IMG/VR virus record: IMGVR_UViG_3300001097_000054
Coordinates: 295 to 22,001 of that record
Direction: 5' to 3' (one strand)
Length of the DNA stretch: 21,707 nt
Origin: a virus
Positions 6,883 through 16,304 of the stretch are shown here, one piece after another (position 1 is the stretch's first letter; each line of letters opens with the position of its first letter). A program made the translations under genes and the position numbers. The notes beneath the pieces were generated by a model, which saw only the letters and a program-made list of their open reading frames with translations, did not search any database and had not been told where the DNA came from.

Positions 6883-6898
6883 TTTGCAAAAGAGAGAT

Positions 6899-8956
6899 AT
6901 GTACGCATTTCAGAAAGACGGTACTAACAACCAAACTTATGATCACAATAACAAAGTGTTCATGTGGCAGCAGTTTTTTTACGATGCGTATAGAACCTGG
7001 GGAGTTTTTTATGCTGAGGCATACAGGGATTTAAAAGCTTATGCAGGGGACAATTGGACTAATCAAGAACGAACTAAGCTTGAAAGACAAAATAGAATGG
7101 TCTTGGAGCTTAATAAAATACGTAGAGTGATCAACCTTTATTCGGGCTATGAAAGAGAAAACAGAACGCAAACTGTTACAGCACCGGTTGAAGGTAGTGA
7201 CGAAATTACAGCAGATCTTTTTTCTAATGTCTTGTACTACGTTTATGATAAAGGGAATGCAGATTACATCTTTTCAGAAGCTTTTGAGCATGCTCTAAAA
7301 ACAGGTCTCGCAATTGTCGGGATCTATATGGACTACACGAAAGATAAAGTGAATGGAGACATTAAATTTTACTGGAAGCCTTTTAACGCGCTTATGTTAG
7401 ATCCATATTTTACTAAGAGGGATTTATCAGATTGCGACCAGGCTTCCACCAGAGATCTACTATCCAAAGAATTAATTAAGAGTTTGTTGCCCTGGATAGA
7501 TCCCGAGGAAATTGACTCAATTCCTACAGGGATAAGAGATAACAAATACCAGTATTTAGGTCTTTATCGACAATATAATTCTACTTACATAGCGCAGAAT
7601 TTAGTCACTTATGACCAATATTGGAAGAGAATTAATGTTCCGCAAAAATATCTTGTAGATGAAGACACAGGAGTTACGGAAGAATGGTTTGGCACAAGAG
7701 CGGAAGAAAAAGAACTTAAAGCAAGCCTGGCTTTAACTCCCCAAGTAAAACTTATTACAACACACAAAAGAAGTGTTGAGCTCAACATTATTGTTGGTGG
7801 TAGGCTGTTGTACAGTGGTCCAGACCCAACAGGTTTAGATACATTCCCATTCATGCCGATATTACTTTACCATGAGCCTCTCATAAGCACAGAGCTTAAA
7901 ATTCAAGGCTTAGTACGTTCCGTTCGTGACGCGCAAAGGCAATATAATCGCCGACACTCACAGATCATAGACATCATGGAATCTATAATTAATACTGGAT
8001 GGATCACGAAGAACGGTTCAGTGTTAGACCCGACAATGCTAATGCAGGCTGGCCAGGGAAGGCAAATTGTTGTTAATGATGGCTATGACGTCAACGCCGA
8101 TGTAAGAGAAATTTCTCCACCCAACATCCCGCCTGGATACCTACAATATCAAGACATTATCGACAAAAATATCATGGAAATTCCTGGCGCGTCAGAGGAA
8201 TTATTAGGCCTATCTTCGACTGGTGACTCTCAAGTATCGGGAAAACTTGCGGAAGTTAGAAGTTCTAACAGCCTTAAAGGTAATCGCGGGATCTTTGATA
8301 ATTTAGAGCAGACTAAAAAATATGTTGGAATGCTGGTTATGGAGTGCATTCAGAAAAATTATCAGCCCGGCAAAATCTTTCGCATTACAAACAAAGAACC
8401 GACTGAAGAATTCTTTTCTGGTAATTTTGGAGAGTATGACTGCGTAGTTAAACAAGCTGTTAAAACTGCCACACAACGTGAAGCTTACTATTACCAACTT
8501 CTTCAGCTTGTGTCACTTGGTGCACCGATTCCCTGGGAAGATATTTTGGAAGCGGCTCCGCTCCAAGGCAAAACTGAGTTTCTTGAGAAGATCAGGGAAA
8601 GAGCTGAACAAGCACAAGAACAACAACAAAAAGTTCAGGAAGCTGAGCAAATACAGAAACAACTTGAATTATCACAAATTGACCAAAACACTGCATTAGC
8701 TGAAGAGCGTCGAGCTCGTGTTCTGGCTGATATTGGCTTGGCAAGAGAAAGAATTTCCGAAGGGGAACAAAACTACGCCAGGGCTTTATTAGATAACGCG
8801 AAAACTGTCAAAGAAATACAAGATCTAGACAGAAAACGCTTACTGGATGTAATGCAATTAGCTTCCGATCTGCGCCAGCAAGAACAAGCTAAAACAGAAG
8901 AATTGTTACAGCAAGACAGCCAGAGAGCGAAAAACCCATTAACTACAGGAGTTTAA
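6899..8956 (+). CDS. Portal protein (P22 type)
   Basis: The portal ring sits at one capsid vertex, is the channel for DNA packaging and exit, and docks the terminase. The frame is open from TTG at 6884, but ATG at 6899 is likelier (GAGAG just upstream), giving 685 residues. The N-terminal half carries the P22-like wing and stem pattern (LNKIRRVINLYSGYERENRT, then IFSEAFEHALKTGLAIVGIYMDY, then WKPFNALMLDPYF). The middle has LVRSVRDAQRQYNRRHSQII and the PGASEELLGL region. Residues from about 570 to 670 are a long Q/E-rich coiled coil, consistent with the C-terminal helical barrel of P22 gp1 (725 residues). It follows the terminase and precedes the scaffold and coat. Assignment is firm. Confidence 0.92.
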   Translation: MYAFQKDGTNNQTYDHNNKVFMWQQFFYDAYRTWGVFYAEAYRDLKAYAGDNWTNQERTKLERQNRMVLELNKIRRVINLYSGYERENRTQTVTAPVEGSDEITADLFSNVLYYVYDKGNADYIFSEAFEHALKTGLAIVGIYMDYTKDKVNGDIKFYWKPFNALMLDPYFTKRDLSDCDQASTRDLLSKELIKSLLPWIDPEEIDSIPTGIRDNKYQYLGLYRQYNSTYIAQNLVTYDQYWKRINVPQKYLVDEDTGVTEEWFGTRAEEKELKASLALTPQVKLITTHKRSVELNIIVGGRLLYSGPDPTGLDTFPFMPILLYHEPLISTELKIQGLVRSVRDAQRQYNRRHSQIIDIMESIINTGWITKNGSVLDPTMLMQAGQGRQIVVNDGYDVNADVREISPPNIPPGYLQYQDIIDKNIMEIPGASEELLGLSSTGDSQVSGKLAEVRSSNSLKGNRGIFDNLEQTKKYVGMLVMECIQKNYQPGKIFRITNKEPTEEFFSGNFGEYDCVVKQAVKTATQREAYYYQLLQLVSLGAPIPWEDILEAAPLQGKTEFLEKIRERAEQAQEQQQKVQEAEQIQKQLELSQIDQNTALAEERRARVLADIGLARERISEGEQNYARALLDNAKTVKEIQDLDRKRLLDVMQLASDLRQQEQAKTEELLQQDSQRAKNPLTTGV

Positions 8957-8957
8957 A

Positions 8958-9230
8958 ATGGCAAGAGGAATGAAAGGAACAGCATCGTACAACAAAATGA
9001 TGCCCAATTTTAGCACATACGGCGGTCAGGAAAACCCGGGCTATAAACCACCGACAGGTGACGCGGGTGCTAAAGCACACGGATTATATTCTACAAAAAA
9101 AAATCCATTGTCTGTACCTATTAAAGGGTCACAAATTGGCCCAGGTTATGGAAATGCAGATCGTATGAAAGCTATGGCAAATAAAGACGCCCAAGCTCTA
9201 GAAGAAGATCTAAGAGGGCAACCATGCTAA
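8958..9230 (+). CDS. Small Gly/Lys-rich phage protein
   Basis: ATG at 8958 follows CAGGAG inside the portal's last codons. The 90-residue product starts MARGMKGTASYNKMMPNFST and contains GYKPPTGDAG and GPGYGNADRMKAMANKDAQ. It is basic and Gly/Pro-rich in its first two thirds with a charged helical end. It is short and probably disordered. Genes of this size and make-up are common between portal and scaffold genes, but no role is established here. Its stop overlaps the start of the next gene (ATGCTAA), so the two are likely coupled. Confidence 0.65.
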   Translation: MARGMKGTASYNKMMPNFSTYGGQENPGYKPPTGDAGAKAHGLYSTKKNPLSVPIKGSQIGPGYGNADRMKAMANKDAQALEEDLRGQPC

Positions 9231-9580
9231 GTCTGCAAAAAACCTTGCCAACGATGGGTGAATTTCATTTATTGGCTAGGAAAAGACTTAGTGACTATTT
9301 CCAAATTAAATTTGAAAAAGTCCAGAAAGAGAATTTAGATAAAAATAAATATTTTATCTTAGGTGCTGTTAAAACGACTAGAAAGAACGGCAAGACAAAA
9401 ATACGTGTAATATTAAAGACGTATGATCAACAGCCACAAATTCAAAAAGAATCGTATCTATATGAAATTGATAATGTAGAAAACACACAAACTCTTTTAT
9501 GGGTCATGCATACAAACAATAGTTTAAGTTTACCAACAATTGGCAAAAAAATATCGGTCGGCACCACAAGCGTATCTTAG
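9224..9580 (+). CDS. Hypothetical protein in the head operon
   Basis: The start overlaps the previous stop as ATGCTAA, and GAGGG lies just upstream. The 118-residue product has a helical N-terminus (MLSLQKTLPTMGEFHLLARK) then beta-type segments (YFILGAVKTTRKNGKTKIRV, KESYLYEIDNVENT). It is basic and has no membrane segment. It lies between the portal and scaffold genes, so a head-assembly role is possible. No family is recognised. A small hairpin starts at its last base, before the scaffold gene. Confidence 0.6.
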   Translation: MLSLQKTLPTMGEFHLLARKRLSDYFQIKFEKVQKENLDKNKYFILGAVKTTRKNGKTKIRVILKTYDQQPQIQKESYLYEIDNVENTQTLLWVMHTNNSLSLPTIGKKISVGTTSVS

Positions 9581-9597
9581 CGTCAGAGTATTGACGC
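9580..9597 (+). other. Small hairpin before the scaffold gene
   Basis: GCGTCA (9580-9585) pairs with TGACGC (9592-9597) around a 6-base loop. No T-run follows, so it is not an intrinsic terminator. It lies just before the scaffold ribosome site (CGGGAG) and could affect RNA processing or stability. Confidence 0.35.
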
Positions 9598-9613
9598 ACT
9601 ACGGGAGTTAATA

Positions 9614-10273
9614 ATGAACGAACAAAACATTGGACATGAAGCGGATGCTGCCTCCGAGCACAACCAAATCGAGTCAGGGGAAGAAAGCCAGGATCTAAAT
9701 CAACAAAAAATGGTCCCACTTGCTGCGCTTCAAGATGAGCGTAGAAAGAGGCAAGAGTTAGAGACAAAAGCAGAGCGATTAGAAGCTAGATCACAAGCTT
9801 ATGAAGAACTGATTCGCGCTAAAGATAGCAAGGAAGAAGTGGAAGAAGAAGATCCCAACGGCATAGTTGAGAGAAAAGACCTCCACGCTAACACAGCACA
9901 TACAAAGCGCGATATTTTGGAAACTCTCTATCAGGATATGAACCCCGAAGCTGTTCAAAAGATAAATAAGTATTTGAAATTGATTTTAGAAAAAAAGCCT
10001 TGGTTGGCTTCTTCGGTAGATACGGCACAGAATCGGTACGCGCGAGCGTACGAAATTGTTGGGGACTACATGCACTTAGTCGATGAAAAAATCGAAGTGA
10101 AAAGGTCAAGCAATCAGGATGGTAAGAGAATAATAGAAAATTCCAGAAAGCCAAGATCACCGATGGACGTCGGGAATTCTGCTCGGCCGGAAGGAATGGA
10201 ATATCTCAAAAGCATCCAGGGGAAGAAAGAGTTCCGTGAGTACCGTCAGAAACTCCGCCAAGGAGACGCTTAG
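9614..10273 (+). CDS. Scaffolding protein
   Basis: The scaffold guides coat assembly inside the procapsid and then leaves. The 219-residue product is highly charged, with no hydrophobic core at either end. Residues about 32-75 (MVPLAALQDERRKRQELETK, then ERLEARSQAYEELIR) match the VPLAAL-Q-x-ER pattern typical of phage scaffolds and form a coiled coil. The C-terminus (EFREYRQKLRQGDA) is basic, as expected for a coat-binding helix. Gene order portal, scaffold, coat supports the call. The ribosome site is CGGGAG, seven bases before the ATG. Assignment is good, from composition, motif and position. Confidence 0.8.
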   Translation: MNEQNIGHEADAASEHNQIESGEESQDLNQQKMVPLAALQDERRKRQELETKAERLEARSQAYEELIRAKDSKEEVEEEDPNGIVERKDLHANTAHTKRDILETLYQDMNPEAVQKINKYLKLILEKKPWLASSVDTAQNRYARAYEIVGDYMHLVDEKIEVKRSSNQDGKRIIENSRKPRSPMDVGNSARPEGMEYLKSIQGKKEFREYRQKLRQGDA

Positions 10274-10299
10274 AGACAAATTTAAAAAATTTTGCCTCT
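10272..10299. other. Hairpin between scaffold and coat genes
   Basis: AGAGACAAA (10272-10280) pairs with TTTGCCTCT (10291-10299), with one A/C mismatch that is G-U in minus-strand RNA. A T6 run comes 12 bases later (10313-10318). It may be a weak terminator or processing site that sets coat and scaffold levels apart. Confidence 0.3.
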
Positions 10300-10332
10300 A
10301 GTGTCAAAACATTTTTTGATTAGGAGATAAAA

Positions 10333-11277
10333 ATGGCTGCTGGAACTACTACAACCGTACAAGTTGACCCTGAAGTTAATTTGTTTTTTGACAATATATT
10401 GCTGGATAGACACCAGCCCTATTACGTTCATGGATACTTCGCACAAGAGCGTAGAATTCCTCAAAAGAACAGTAAGACTGCTATCTTTCGTCGCTATGAT
10501 AATTTGGCCGATGCCCTTACACCGCTGACTGAAGGGGTAACACCAGCTTCAGAACAGGTAACCAAGTTCGACATAACCGCTGTAGTTCAACAGTACGGTA
10601 AAGTCGTAGAAGTATCTGATGATGTAATTATCACAGTACAGGATCAAACAGCTAACGAAATTGCTGACATGCTTGCTCAAAACATGGCAAGCACTTATGA
10701 CAAAATTGTTAGGAATATGCTCGCTGCTACAAGTGCACAAATTGACTGCCTAAACGGGGTTAATGGACAGCCCATCACAGAAGTAACTACCACTGACCTC
10801 GAACTAGCCGTTGACTATCTAGAAGGTAATAACGGTAAGAAATTATCACCTAACCAAGAAGGCACAAACGCTTTTGGTACTGCTCCAGTATGGGCAGCGT
10901 ATTGGATGATTATTTCTACTGATTTACGTTCAGACTTTAAAAACTTGTCTAATTTTCTACCAACTGCCGATTACCCAAGACAGCAGTCTGTACTTGAAGC
11001 CGAATTTGGCTCATGTGATGAGGTTCGGTTGGTTAAGACATCTGAAGCGTACAAAGACACGTCAGTTGTTCCCGCCATTTATTTTAACTTCTTGTTCGCT
11101 GCTAACGCTTATGGACGTATTTCTATCGACGATCAATCGATGGAAATGGTTCTAAAACCGCTTGGAGCGGGACAAGATCCGTTGAACCAACGCCAAAGTA
11201 TGGGTTGGAAAGGTCGTCTAGGGGCTGTTATCCTAGATGATAGTTGGTGCATAGCACTACGAAGCACAAAAGGTTAA
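10333..11277 (+). CDS. Major capsid protein (N4-gp56 family)
   Basis: This is the main coat subunit of the head. The 314-residue product starts MAAGTTTTVQVDPEVNLFFD. Its N-terminal third carries the pattern of the N4-gp56 capsid family: DxxLLDRxxPYxVH, then RRIPQKNSKTAIFRRYDNL, then LTEGVTP, then AVVQQYGKVVEVSDDV. The rest fits an HK97-like fold (LAQNMASTYDKIVRNML as the axial helix region, NFLPTADYPRQQSVLEAEFG, and a C-terminal GAVILDDSWCIALRST). It has a strong ribosome site (TAGGAG) and follows the scaffold. An N4-gp56 coat with a P22-like portal is seen in many short-tailed phages. Assignment is firm. Confidence 0.92.
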   Translation: MAAGTTTTVQVDPEVNLFFDNILLDRHQPYYVHGYFAQERRIPQKNSKTAIFRRYDNLADALTPLTEGVTPASEQVTKFDITAVVQQYGKVVEVSDDVIITVQDQTANEIADMLAQNMASTYDKIVRNMLAATSAQIDCLNGVNGQPITEVTTTDLELAVDYLEGNNGKKLSPNQEGTNAFGTAPVWAAYWMIISTDLRSDFKNLSNFLPTADYPRQQSVLEAEFGSCDEVRLVKTSEAYKDTSVVPAIYFNFLFAANAYGRISIDDQSMEMVLKPLGAGQDPLNQRQSMGWKGRLGAVILDDSWCIALRSTKG

Positions 11278-11292
11278 AAAAAGGGGGACAAT

Positions 11293-12042
11293 ATGACTGC
11301 GTCATTAGGAAATAATGCTAATAGATTTACTGGTCAGCGCGAGCAAAGCCAGGTTACTAACAGCTACGGGGGTTATCTACAATCTGCTGGGATTGCATAT
11401 GACCTAACTCTACCATTCTTACCAGATAAGTTAGACTGGTATAATTTTACTAGATATGGGACGGATACATCGTCTATTTCTGGCGTGTGGTTTCGTGATA
11501 TGCCAATAGGCGACGCATTAATCGTTACACGAGGCGCTACAACCCTGACTAGTACATTGGAAACAACAAATGGAATTACTGACGTATCAACTGAAGGTGG
11601 GTTTTATGACCTACATTTAGTAATCACAGGAATTACAACTGCGACACCAGGCGTTATTACAACTTCCGCAGCCCATTTTCTGTCTGACTTCGACCGTGTA
11701 ATACTGACAAAAATTATTGGCACAGCAGCAGCGCAATTGAACAACAACGAATATGTCGTTCGAGTTCTTTCAGCGACCACGTTTGCTTTGTATGATACTT
11801 TTGGTATTCCAGTAACAGTGAGTGGAGCCTACGGCTCTAGTGGTCAAGTCACGAAAGTTGGTCCGTTGCTGGGTAATCCTAACGAGCCCGTAAGTCCAGC
11901 TATACAGCATCGTGCTATTATCGACTATGCACCTACCGCAATTTTGCGTTTAGGAACGTCTATAATGGGAGCTGACAATAACATTATCTATTTTACGGCG
12001 TGGCAGTTTAACGGCTATGTCAATCGTGGTGATGTTGTGTAA
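11293..12042 (+). CDS. Structural protein after the coat, with FCCH-like module
   Basis: The 249-residue product begins MTASLGNNANRFTGQREQSQ. It has the ribosome site GGGGG close to its ATG, 15 bases after the coat stop. It is rich in Thr, Gly and Ala and looks all-beta. Residues about 105-165 (LVITGITTATPGVITTSAAH, then LNNNEYVVRVLSATTFALYD) repeat the module seen at 3540 and 13845. The end (DNNIIYFTAWQFNGYV) is also beta. The position, coat stoichiometry block closed by a terminator, suggests a capsid decoration or head-vertex protein. The exact role is inferred; it is certainly a virion-type protein by composition. Confidence 0.65.
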   Translation: MTASLGNNANRFTGQREQSQVTNSYGGYLQSAGIAYDLTLPFLPDKLDWYNFTRYGTDTSSISGVWFRDMPIGDALIVTRGATTLTSTLETTNGITDVSTEGGFYDLHLVITGITTATPGVITTSAAHFLSDFDRVILTKIIGTAAAQLNNNEYVVRVLSATTFALYDTFGIPVTVSGAYGSSGQVTKVGPLLGNPNEPVSPAIQHRAIIDYAPTAILRLGTSIMGADNNIIYFTAWQFNGYVNRGDVV

Positions 12043-12052
12043 ATAATTAGGT

Positions 12053-12078
12053 GGGGGGTAATTTATCCCCCCCTTTCT
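12053..12078 (+). terminator. GC-rich intrinsic terminator or attenuator after the head genes
   Basis: Six Gs (12053-12058) pair with Cs at 12067-12073 around an AT-rich loop, followed by TTTCTT. It lies 11 bases after the head gene stop and before the tail genes. It probably lowers, rather than fully stops, transcription into the tail module, since no clear promoter was seen after it. Confidence 0.65.
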
Positions 12079-12096
12079 TAACTGTAATGAGGAAAT

Positions 12097-12561
12097 ATGA
12101 GCAGAAAAATGGAAACGAAATCCGAACAAATTGAAATGGAAAAACCTTTTGATTTTGATACTTTTGAAATCAAAACAATTGAAGATTTTGGTATTTGGAA
12201 CTTGCATGCAAGAAAAGCTTTTCGCGAAGCCAAAAAACGCAACCCTCGTTGTGACCCACCGATACCTGTAAGAGTGCCTGACGAATCATTCCACAAAAAA
12301 ATGAAAGTCAAATTTCAGCGTTTTGATCAACCCGAAAACATTTTAAAAGTATCAGTGCGCACAAAAGAAATTGACTGGAAAGGACAGCTAAAGCCAGGGC
12401 GTAGTTACGATTTACCCTTACCAGTAATTCGTTTTCTCAACAATCTTGCCGTGCCTATTTTTGCGGAAGTTAAAGTTGAAAGTAATGGAGAGACGGTTAC
12501 AGAAACACGGCAAGTAGGCGAACGCAATCGCTTTTCATGCCATCCCATGGAGATAATTTAA
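12097..12561 (+). CDS. Hypothetical protein, neck region
   Basis: ATG follows GAGGAAAT. The 154-residue product starts with a charged helix (MSRKMETKSEQIEMEKPFDF), then FEIKTIEDFGIWNLHARKAF, a central DPPIPVRVPDESFHKK, and a beta-rich C-terminal half ending in VGERNRFSCHPMEI. Its place between coat/decoration genes and the adaptor gene suggests a head-completion or neck role, and in phages of this type a small protein commonly stands here. No catalytic motif or membrane segment is visible. No named family is recognised. Confidence 0.65.
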   Translation: MSRKMETKSEQIEMEKPFDFDTFEIKTIEDFGIWNLHARKAFREAKKRNPRCDPPIPVRVPDESFHKKMKVKFQRFDQPENILKVSVRTKEIDWKGQLKPGRSYDLPLPVIRFLNNLAVPIFAEVKVESNGETVTETRQVGERNRFSCHPMEII

Positions 12562-12567
12562 GGGAAT

Positions 12568-12828
12568 ATGGCTAAATCAACGGCAGATTTAATTTTGATT
12601 CTCAGAAATATTACTGGCAGAGTTGATGCGAGCGATCCGCAATTTACTGATTCAATCATGCTTCAGTATTTGCAGGACTTTATTCAACTTCAGTCAACGC
12701 AAGATATTCGTATTTTTAAAAATAAAACTTGGTGGGAATTTACATACGGACCTGGACTTAAATCCATTTCCAGTAAATTTACAAAATATTATTTTAATAA
12801 ATGGGAATCAGGGAGCATCAACAATTGA
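12568..12828 (+). CDS. Head-tail adaptor-like protein, N-terminal part (frameshifted)
   Basis: ATG at 12568 follows AAGGGA. The first 65 residues (MAKSTADLILILRNITGRVD, then DSIMLQYLQDFIQLQSTQDI, then KTWWEFTYGPGL) look like the start of the gp4-like tail accessory proteins of short-tailed phages: a helical start, then W-E-F-x-Y/T-x-P-G. After GPGL at 12757 the frame gives unrelated residues and stops at 12828. The expected sequence (NPFPVNLQN, then PPCYVDGFYVFWY) continues one base over, from 12761. The two parts together would give about 218 residues, a normal length. The break is either an extra A in AAA (12760-12762), a real mutation, or a +1 ribosomal shift at CTT-A. Confidence 0.7.
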   Translation: MAKSTADLILILRNITGRVDASDPQFTDSIMLQYLQDFIQLQSTQDIRIFKNKTWWEFTYGPGLKSISSKFTKYYFNKWESGSINN

Positions 12829-13222
12829 ACCGCCGTGTTATGTTGATGGGTTTTACGTTTTCTGGTATCAAGACCCTACAGAATTTTATAGAATCTGGCC
12901 AGAAACGCAAACCTATCAACCTCAACGCCCTACTGGGGTTCTTTATTACAATAACGAATTAACTTTTAGGGGTCCTCCTGAAAAAGATTATTTAGTAAAG
13001 ATCGCAGCTTATCAAGTTGAGCTTGAGATAACAAATGGTGTTTTAGACCAAGATTATCTGTATCGCTATATATGTTACGGAACAGCTTTAGACATATTTT
13101 CAGATTTTGGAGAGATGGATAAATGGCGAGATATTTTCCAAGCATATCAACGATACAGAGCCCTGGTATATGGTAGAACAAACTGCCAATATCAAAATCA
13201 ACGCCCATCCCCGGAGTTTTAA
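12761..13222 (+). CDS. Head-tail adaptor-like protein, C-terminal part (frameshifted)
   Basis: This is the continuation of the gene at 12568 in the +1 frame. The frame is open well upstream, but the residues before 12761 (such as IRNLLIQSCFSICRTLFNFS) are out-of-frame noise. From NPFPVNLQN on, the sequence is convincing: PPCYVDGFYVFWYQDPTEFY, LTFRGPPEKDYLVKIAAYQV, and a final helical part (LYRYICYGTALDIFSDFGEM, QAYQRYRALVYGRTN). This pattern fits the second half of neck or tail accessory proteins that bridge portal and tail. No start codon with a ribosome site precedes it, so it is not an independent gene. It ends TAATG onto the next gene. Confidence 0.7.
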   Translation, partial: NPFPVNLQNIILINGNQGASTIEPPCYVDGFYVFWYQDPTEFYRIWPETQTYQPQRPTGVLYYNNELTFRGPPEKDYLVKIAAYQVELEITNGVLDQDYLYRYICYGTALDIFSDFGEMDKWRDIFQAYQRYRALVYGRTNCQYQNQRPSPEF

Positions 13223-13845
13223 TGACTTACGACCCAAACATTCCCAATGCTGGTCAATCGCCAGGATTATTTCCGCCTCAAATGAATGCAAACCTGGGTC
13301 GCTTAAAAACGATTATAAATGCTGATCACGTTTTTAACGACACTGCACAAGATACAGACGGAGTTCATAGACAAGCTACTTTTGTAGAAAGATCTATGCC
13401 GGCTACACCCCCAGGATTACCTGCTGGTACTAACGGTATATTCTACTGCTGGCTTGACGCAAATGGCCAAGCACAGCTGCGTTGGTTCAACGGCAATACA
13501 GACGTACAGCTCACACCTGGAATCGTCGCTATGGTCAATTTTGATGGCACGGGAGCGGCTGGGGTTAAAACTATGCGATCGCAATTAAATGTCGAATCTG
13601 TCACCAAAACTGCGCTTGGGACTTACACGGTGAAATTCGCTACAGAGATGCCGAACACAAATTACATTGTGCAAGTTTGCGCTCACAGTCAATCAGGAAC
13701 AAATGGCATCTCAAATGGTGCAGTTCGAGGTGATATAACATACGCAAACGCCGTACAAAAAGCAAATGTAAAAGTTCAATTCAACGGGTCTGGTTCTAAT
13801 TTAATTGACGTAACTGCTGGTTTCGTTTTAGTCACGAGAGTTTAA
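13222..13845 (+). CDS. Tail fibre-like or minor tail protein
   Basis: The start overlaps the previous stop (TAATG) and the end overlaps the next start in the same way. The 207-residue product opens with MTYDPNIPNAGQSPGLFPPQ and an NLGRLKTIINADHVFND segment, then Gly/Pro-rich beta strands (GIFYCWLDANGQAQLRWFN). The C-terminal 80 residues (ALGTYTVKFATEMPNTNYIV, then VKVQFNGSGSNLIDVTAGFV) look like the beta-sandwich tip domain found at the ends of phage fibres. Receptor binding or particle decoration is inferred. No enzymatic motif is seen. Confidence 0.6.
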   Translation: MTYDPNIPNAGQSPGLFPPQMNANLGRLKTIINADHVFNDTAQDTDGVHRQATFVERSMPATPPGLPAGTNGIFYCWLDANGQAQLRWFNGNTDVQLTPGIVAMVNFDGTGAAGVKTMRSQLNVESVTKTALGTYTVKFATEMPNTNYIVQVCAHSQSGTNGISNGAVRGDITYANAVQKANVKVQFNGSGSNLIDVTAGFVLVTRV

Positions 13846-16304
13846 TGAGCTACACCCCTTTTTTAATTTCTAATTTTGCAACGGGACTAGACAAAAGACT
13901 TCAGCCCTGGCTTATTCCCGATGACGCTCAAGAGGAACTGCTAGATGGCTATGTTTATCGCGGGACAATGTCAAAAAGAGAAGGTTACACGTACTTTGCT
14001 ACGGGTGAAAAAGGCGGTGTTGGATATAGAGAATCGCGTATTGTGGACACTACAACAGATTTTGCCATGGTCGGAGCAATAGACGGTGTCAATACACTGT
14101 ACACTTTAAATGGCTTGCCGCAAATTGCGCGGGGAAGTGCGGTTATTACTGGCAATAATCCAGCTCAAACTTTTACAGATAACAGCAATGGTTTCTTTTT
14201 TGATGGAATAACACAGATCGGAACAATAAATTATTTGACAGGTGTTATTAGCATCACCCTTCCAGTAGCCCCAGCAGCGGGAACGGTTTTAATAACTTAC
14301 AACTCGATGCCAGGGCTTCCCGTAATGATGATTGCTAGTTTCATTACAGCTTCAAATATACGAGAATTGATTGTCGCAGACACAAGAAATGTTAATTTTT
14401 ACAATACTTCGCTTAACGTTTTAGAAAACCTTCCTCATCCCACACCTTATACAGGCGATCAATTTGATTTTTTTACATGGGTAAACTACGAAAGCGCAAC
14501 AAGTATTCCAAGGCTTTTATTCTCAAATAATGTTGATGTTATACAGCAATATGATGGAGCTGTAGTAACGGATTACACTTATAATATGCTAACTGGAAAT
14601 CCACCAATTCCCGTCACAACTTTAACTTGCGCCTGGATGGCAAGTTACAAAGATCGGCTGATACTCTTAAGAACAACGGAAAACGGTGCTATTTTCGGAA
14701 AGAGAATTAGAATTTCTGGCACTGGCGTTAACACAGATAATTTTATAACAACTGCAACTGGAGCGGGATTTATTGACATTCCAGACGCGACGTGGATATA
14801 CGGAGCTGCTTTTAATAGAGATGATTTAATTATTTTCACTCAACAAGCAACCTGGGTCTTAAAATTTACGGGTAATGACACCACTCCATTTGCGCTTAAT
14901 AAAATTGACGAATCGCGCGGAAGTGAAGCCACGTTTGGAGCAATAACATACTTAAACAGAACTACAACCCTTTCTCCACGGGGTTTAATTAACACAGATG
15001 GCTACAGGGTAGTGCGACAAGACGAAGACATTCCAGACTTTTCTTATAATGAAATTGACGGCGCAAACTTTTCCTTGTGCTTTGCTGGATCTGTAGATGC
15101 TGATAGAGACCATTATTTGCTATACCCACCGCCCAATCGACAACATTCTTTAAGAATTTTGACTACTAATTACGATGAAGATAATTATTCTACATACCGA
15201 CTGGCGTTATCATGTATGGGGAATTTTGTTAGTTCATTTGATGTAACATGGTCACAATTGCTTAGATATGGTAACTGGGATCAATTTGCTGCTGAATTCG
15301 GCGATTGGAATTCTTTTGCTTACACTGCTGGAGCTCCGTTTAGTGTGGGAGGGGGTCACAAAGGGGAAATATGGAAACTTGCTGTTACAGAAATTGAAGA
15401 TAATCCCGTTAGAGTTCGTGAAGTGACAATTATTGATGTTAACACGCTTGAAGTCACTACAGACTGGAATAATTACCGTCTAAATCTTGATAACAGTTCC
15501 TTGTTTGATTTTGAATATGCTGACCCTGACCAAGAAGCAGATATTATTTATTTTACCGGCCTAGGTGGAACTGTTGAGGCAAATAATAAACAATACCCAA
15601 TTATTTCTGTAATAAACAACAACGTATTCCGCGTCAGGGTTCCATCTACAGCCGATTTTTCAAATTACACTTCGGGAGGAACTGCGCAAAGAGTTATCCC
15701 TTTTTCTTCTTTAATGAAACAATTTAACCCATACATAGCGCAAGATCAAAAAGTTCGATGTGGATGGATTTACATGTATGTCAACTCGACAGGAACAAAA
15801 TTAACTAAAAATTACGCAATTGCGAACATAACAAACTCTAATCCAGCAATTGTAACCACTGCTCTTCAGCATGGTTTGTTGACTGGATCGCAAGTGAATT
15901 TTTTTGGTATTCTCGGGATGACTGAATTGAACGGCGCAGTAGCTTTTGTAACGGTTTTGTCTCCAACAACCTATTCGCTTAATGATATAGATTCGTCAGG
16001 GTTCGGAGCTTATATTAGTGGTGGGTATGCCGCTTCTGCGGAACCAGCCAAGCTTGTTATTGAAGTGCTAACAAACGATCGGAAAACGCCTAATTACACA
16101 CAATTAAATAATTTAAGCCAGCAACCATATCAGGGAATTTGTTCTAATTTGACTTTTGAAGACGGAGTTAAGAAATGGTACAAAGTATTTATTAATCAAA
16201 CAGGAAAGTTTATTCAATTTAGATTTTTAAATACGCAAGCTGGAGCAAAAATCAACATTCAAGCCACAATGCCAGGGTTTCAACCAGTCGGAAGGTTAAT
16301 TTAA
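13845..16304 (+). CDS. Large tail hub/stabilisation protein
   Basis: The 819-residue product starts MSYTPFLISNFATGLDKRLQ, then WLIPDDAQEELLDGYVYRGT and KREGYTY. This is the N-terminal signature (NF-x-x-GLD-x-R ... P-x-D ... KR-GY) of large podovirus tail proteins such as P22 gp10-type nozzle or stabilisation proteins. The middle (TFTDNSNGFFFDGITQIGTI, AWMASYKDRLILLRTTENG, ATWVLKFTGND) has the repeated beta-blade look of a propeller. Two small FCCH-like modules sit at about residues 525-600 and 655-720 (NPAIVTTALQHGLLTGSQV, then ATTYSLNDID-like PTTYSLNDID). It is the largest beta-type gene and lies after the adaptor, as expected. It probably plugs the head or forms the tail nozzle. Confidence 0.7.
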   Translation: MSYTPFLISNFATGLDKRLQPWLIPDDAQEELLDGYVYRGTMSKREGYTYFATGEKGGVGYRESRIVDTTTDFAMVGAIDGVNTLYTLNGLPQIARGSAVITGNNPAQTFTDNSNGFFFDGITQIGTINYLTGVISITLPVAPAAGTVLITYNSMPGLPVMMIASFITASNIRELIVADTRNVNFYNTSLNVLENLPHPTPYTGDQFDFFTWVNYESATSIPRLLFSNNVDVIQQYDGAVVTDYTYNMLTGNPPIPVTTLTCAWMASYKDRLILLRTTENGAIFGKRIRISGTGVNTDNFITTATGAGFIDIPDATWIYGAAFNRDDLIIFTQQATWVLKFTGNDTTPFALNKIDESRGSEATFGAITYLNRTTTLSPRGLINTDGYRVVRQDEDIPDFSYNEIDGANFSLCFAGSVDADRDHYLLYPPPNRQHSLRILTTNYDEDNYSTYRLALSCMGNFVSSFDVTWSQLLRYGNWDQFAAEFGDWNSFAYTAGAPFSVGGGHKGEIWKLAVTEIEDNPVRVREVTIIDVNTLEVTTDWNNYRLNLDNSSLFDFEYADPDQEADIIYFTGLGGTVEANNKQYPIISVINNNVFRVRVPSTADFSNYTSGGTAQRVIPFSSLMKQFNPYIAQDQKVRCGWIYMYVNSTGTKLTKNYAIANITNSNPAIVTTALQHGLLTGSQVNFFGILGMTELNGAVAFVTVLSPTTYSLNDIDSSGFGAYISGGYAASAEPAKLVIEVLTNDRKTPNYTQLNNLSQQPYQGICSNLTFEDGVKKWYKVFINQTGKFIQFRFLNTQAGAKINIQATMPGFQPVGRLI

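Follow-up and report, generated by a model that had tools for sequence, protein, structure and literature searches.

A private two-base deletion probably splits the predicted head-tail adaptor gene of a metagenomic phage

Why should a phage gene that is expected to be essential be broken partway through? The question arises in a 21,707-nucleotide stretch of IMG/VR record IMGVR_UViG_3300001097_000054 (the window), in which a putative neck gene extends from 12568 to 13222 on the plus strand, which also carries the portal and head genes described below. The original prediction placed a frame break at 12757-12763 and offered three explanations: a +1 slip at a CTT-AAA motif, like the one used by yeast Ty1, an extra A in the sequence, or a defective prophage. 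By comparing open reading frames and homology, we confirmed that the gene is divided between frame 1 and frame 2. Frame 1 opens at ATG 12568 and closes at TGA 12826-12828, encoding 86 amino acids, and frame 2 is free of stops from after 12596 up to TAA 13220-13222. Scanning viral contigs with the downstream half of the gene returned 46 related loci. Their proteins match frame 1 over 12568-12753 and then frame 2 from 12752 or 12755 to 13219, so the two halves (12568-12753 and 12752-13222) belong to a single gene. The predicted split therefore stands, but its position does not: the break is at 12751/12752.

The gene was originally identified as a head-tail adaptor, and this identity is upheld by fold comparison. 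Searches with the adaptor sequence, in which five intact relatives were used, returned no Pfam family and no PHROG of weight, and comparison with PDB sequences also gave no match, although divergence can hide a match in either case. The fold comparison used a predicted structure of the protein from the best of the 46 loci (L002), modeled with AlphaFold2 at a mean pLDDT of 80.2 and a pTM of 0.56. The model consists of N-terminal helices, a beta domain and C-terminal helices. Its best Foldseek match is phage GP4 (8jov_G, E 4.1e-6), and all 11 PDB chains at E <= 0.001 come from phage portal, neck or tail complexes. VIA Z scores are 13.0 to KHP30, 10.4 to P22 gp4 (104 residues) and 10.1 to T7 gp11 (6r21_N). 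A structure alignment (A2) drew on 33 of the 46 loci.

The gene neighborhood points the same way. A P22-like portal protein (PF16510), the expected neck partner of the adaptor, is encoded at 6884-8956, and the major head protein (PHROG 1357) follows at 10333-11277; both genes are unsplit, and the adaptor gene lies close to and downstream of them in the order portal, head, adaptor. With the fold match, these upstream genes sustain the assignment, and the gene at 12568-13222 is, as judged from its modeled fold, a podovirus head-tail adaptor. It resembles the adaptors P22 gp4, Sf6 gp7, T7 gp11, GP4 and KHP30 in predicted fold and in its place downstream of portal and head genes, but differs from podovirus adaptors in having no detectable sequence match and in being broken in this record. 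As written, the product would be a truncated adaptor of 86 residues that lacks the beta domain and the C-terminal helices, both encoded by the 3' part. Mapped onto the model, this product would retain only two helices and a single strand.

The origin of the break became apparent from a near-identical virus. The best locus belongs to record IMGVR_UViG_3300023301_000954, in which the adaptor gene is a single frame of 218 codons. Taken whole (L048), this record overlaps the window over 7791-14363 and is 99.94% identical to it across 6,575 aligned columns, with two substitutions and one two-base gap as the only differences. The gap sits at 12751/12752, with the window as the shorter form. We therefore read the break as a net two-base deletion a short way upstream of CTT-AAA and not as an extra A at 12757-12763. 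The suggestion of a plain indel was right in kind and wrong in size and place, as two bases are missing farther upstream where one was thought to have been added. Of the two substitutions, one (12066) is intergenic and the other (12693) changes a Gln codon synonymously. Such harmless changes are to be expected if selection is purifying; the gap alone among the differences between the two records does damage. Two pattern scans of viral contigs, with patterns spanning or adjoining the junction, found the exact stretch in just one other record.

The original prediction had also proposed comparison with relatives, and the outcome speaks against any need for a slip. The junction can be read in 43 of the 46 loci, and all 43 encode the adaptor in a single frame, so that a frame change is conserved in none of them. 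Several of these loci are near-duplicates (for example, L007/L008/L009/L021, L013/L014, L015/L016 and L025/L026), and the 43 are therefore not independent events. Three loci were left out of the count: L012 ends at a contig edge, and in L046 and L047 the downstream part alone aligns, each gene being one frame of 322 residues. In L027 the junction is read in one frame, but via a TGA at a Trp position. Among the window genes that match open reading frames of the fetched relatives, only the adaptor gene is hit in two frames by full-length frames.

We conclude, with a probability of roughly 0.93, that the adaptor gene was broken by a private, recent two-base deletion at 12751/12752, arising either as an error or as a mutation, and that no recoding is involved. 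An error in the consensus or assembly, or a contig that took up a minority read, would explain the deletion and seems to us the most likely source, at slightly better than even odds. Antonov et al. (2013, PMC3711429) expect that frame breaks which are unclustered and confirmed by BLASTp stem from sequencing errors and not from genuine indels. The break described here resembles their singleton breaks in being absent from relatives and in having two halves that both match full-length relatives, although their material was complete prokaryotic genomes and ours is a metagenomic phage record. The three differences from the near-identical record all lie in a span of 687 bases (for three uniformly placed points, P is about 0.03). 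This clustering may mean nothing, or it could point to strain mixing or misassembly in that part of the sequence.

Alternatively, a real loss-of-function mutation may have occurred recently in one phage lineage, an explanation that we hold to be a serious one at somewhat under even odds. Short-read errors do not typically delete two bases outside a homopolymer, and this leaves room for a real mutation. In either case the damage would be fresh: the protein sequence encoded by the downstream half is 100% identical to its counterpart in the near-identical record, and this conservation, together with the adaptor being the only split gene among those compared, gives no sign of older decay.

That observation also bears on the idea that the adaptor gene was lost in the course of the general decay of a defective prophage. 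The loss of a gene expected to be essential, and the possibility that the mutation is real, lend this idea some appeal. However, the other window genes with relatives stay in one frame, the remainder of the overlap with the near-identical record contains no further damage, and scans of genome_contigs with the adaptor and the head protein found no prophage copy. General decay thus appears highly improbable, and the defective-prophage explanation is not supported in that form. In these scans the adaptor alignment found no relative, and the head protein found one, at 44% identity, on a Parcubacteria MAG contig (L058, LCLB01000023.1), which may point to the hosts that distant relatives infect, unless it is a mis-binned phage. 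The phages collection of named phages yielded neither a DNA nor a protein match to the window.

Could translation instead repair the break? A full-length adaptor would result from both frames if ribosomes shifted by +1 at CTT-AAA in the manner of Ty1, whether as a programmed event or as compensation. The motif has similarities to the Ty1 site: as in CUU_AGG_C, a site with 40% +1 shifting in yeast according to one review (PMC5009743), CUU is followed by A, permitting re-pairing from CUU to UUA. Such a slip at 12757-12759 would carry ribosomes from one homologous frame into the other and yield a protein one residue shorter than the near-identical form. If recoding were true, +1 frameshifting would gain a new role, that of expressing a phage neck gene.

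The details of the site are unfavorable to this explanation. CTT-AAA lies at 12757-12762, some 6 bases past the actual break, within a stretch where frame 2 is already homologous to the near-identical record. In that record the same letters fall in frame as TTA AAT, the reading that a slip would have to produce. CTT-AAA is thus in frame here solely because the upstream deletion has already shifted the frame, and the apparent slip motif is a product of the deletion itself. In Ty1, according to the same review (PMC5009743), slipping is promoted because the A-site codon AGG is recognized slowly. The A-site codon in the window is AAA, which, as the original prediction recognized, is not rare. It is the commoner Lys codon (260 AAA versus 63 AAG), and no stop follows CTT, so the shift-prone P-site codon is succeeded by neither a slow codon nor a stop. 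The motif is also frequent elsewhere, with 6 in-frame copies of CTT-AAA and 25 of CTT followed by A in the 14 other window ORFs (4,982 codon pairs). Because the gene needs no shift in any of the 43 assessable relatives, including one that is 99.94% identical, we find no evidence of programmed +1 frameshifting here and give the Ty1-like slip hardly any credence. It would be just as surprising if the short form were real in nature and the phage survived its recent indel through incidental +1 slips, at CTT-AAA or nearby within 12752-12826, frequent enough to yield some full-length adaptor. For frame breaks of this type, comparison with a near-identical record settles the matter.

Finally, that the halves now work as two separate genes is exceedingly improbable: frame 2 offers a TTG at 12623 and an ATG at 12626 as starts, but both are within the first gene, the resulting peptide over 12623-12751 is not in the frame that relatives use there, no ATG, GTG or TTG occurs in frame 2 between 12752 and 13000, and the gene is split in 0 of 43 assessable relatives. 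An alternative genetic code was rejected as a cause, since a code change leaves the frame unaltered.

Several features of the relatives and of the window are of separate interest. One relative (L027, IMGVR_UViG_3300048897_000013, 41,313 bases) has 9 in-frame TGAs in aligned parts of several genes, 7 of them at positions where the window phage has Trp. It appears from this pattern to read TGA as tryptophan, and since it alone among the 46 loci does so, the code change seems to have arisen within an otherwise standard-code group.

In L050 (record G002, which also contains L006), about 700 bases at 13568-14273 break into the major head gene, and the head protein picks up again at the codon matching window position 10600. 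The insert contains a reading frame that we take to be LAGLIDADG-like, and to judge by its sequence it resembles an intron that carries a homing endonuclease. In L044, the similarity of the head gene (880-2156) to the window falls into three segments, with roughly 200 additional bases between one segment and the next. A search of L006 and L044 with Rfam at the gathering threshold found nothing.

The adaptor itself varies in length. L022, L023, L024 and L028 encode adaptors of 317-319 amino acids with about 90 extra residues between the conserved halves. In L052, from the same record as L028, the adaptor also matches a portion (14046-14303) of the 819-amino-acid structural protein of the window, a similarity that suggests a mobile domain shared by the two proteins. 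Near its start, at 154-2699, the window contains many short tandem repeats with periods of 11-32.
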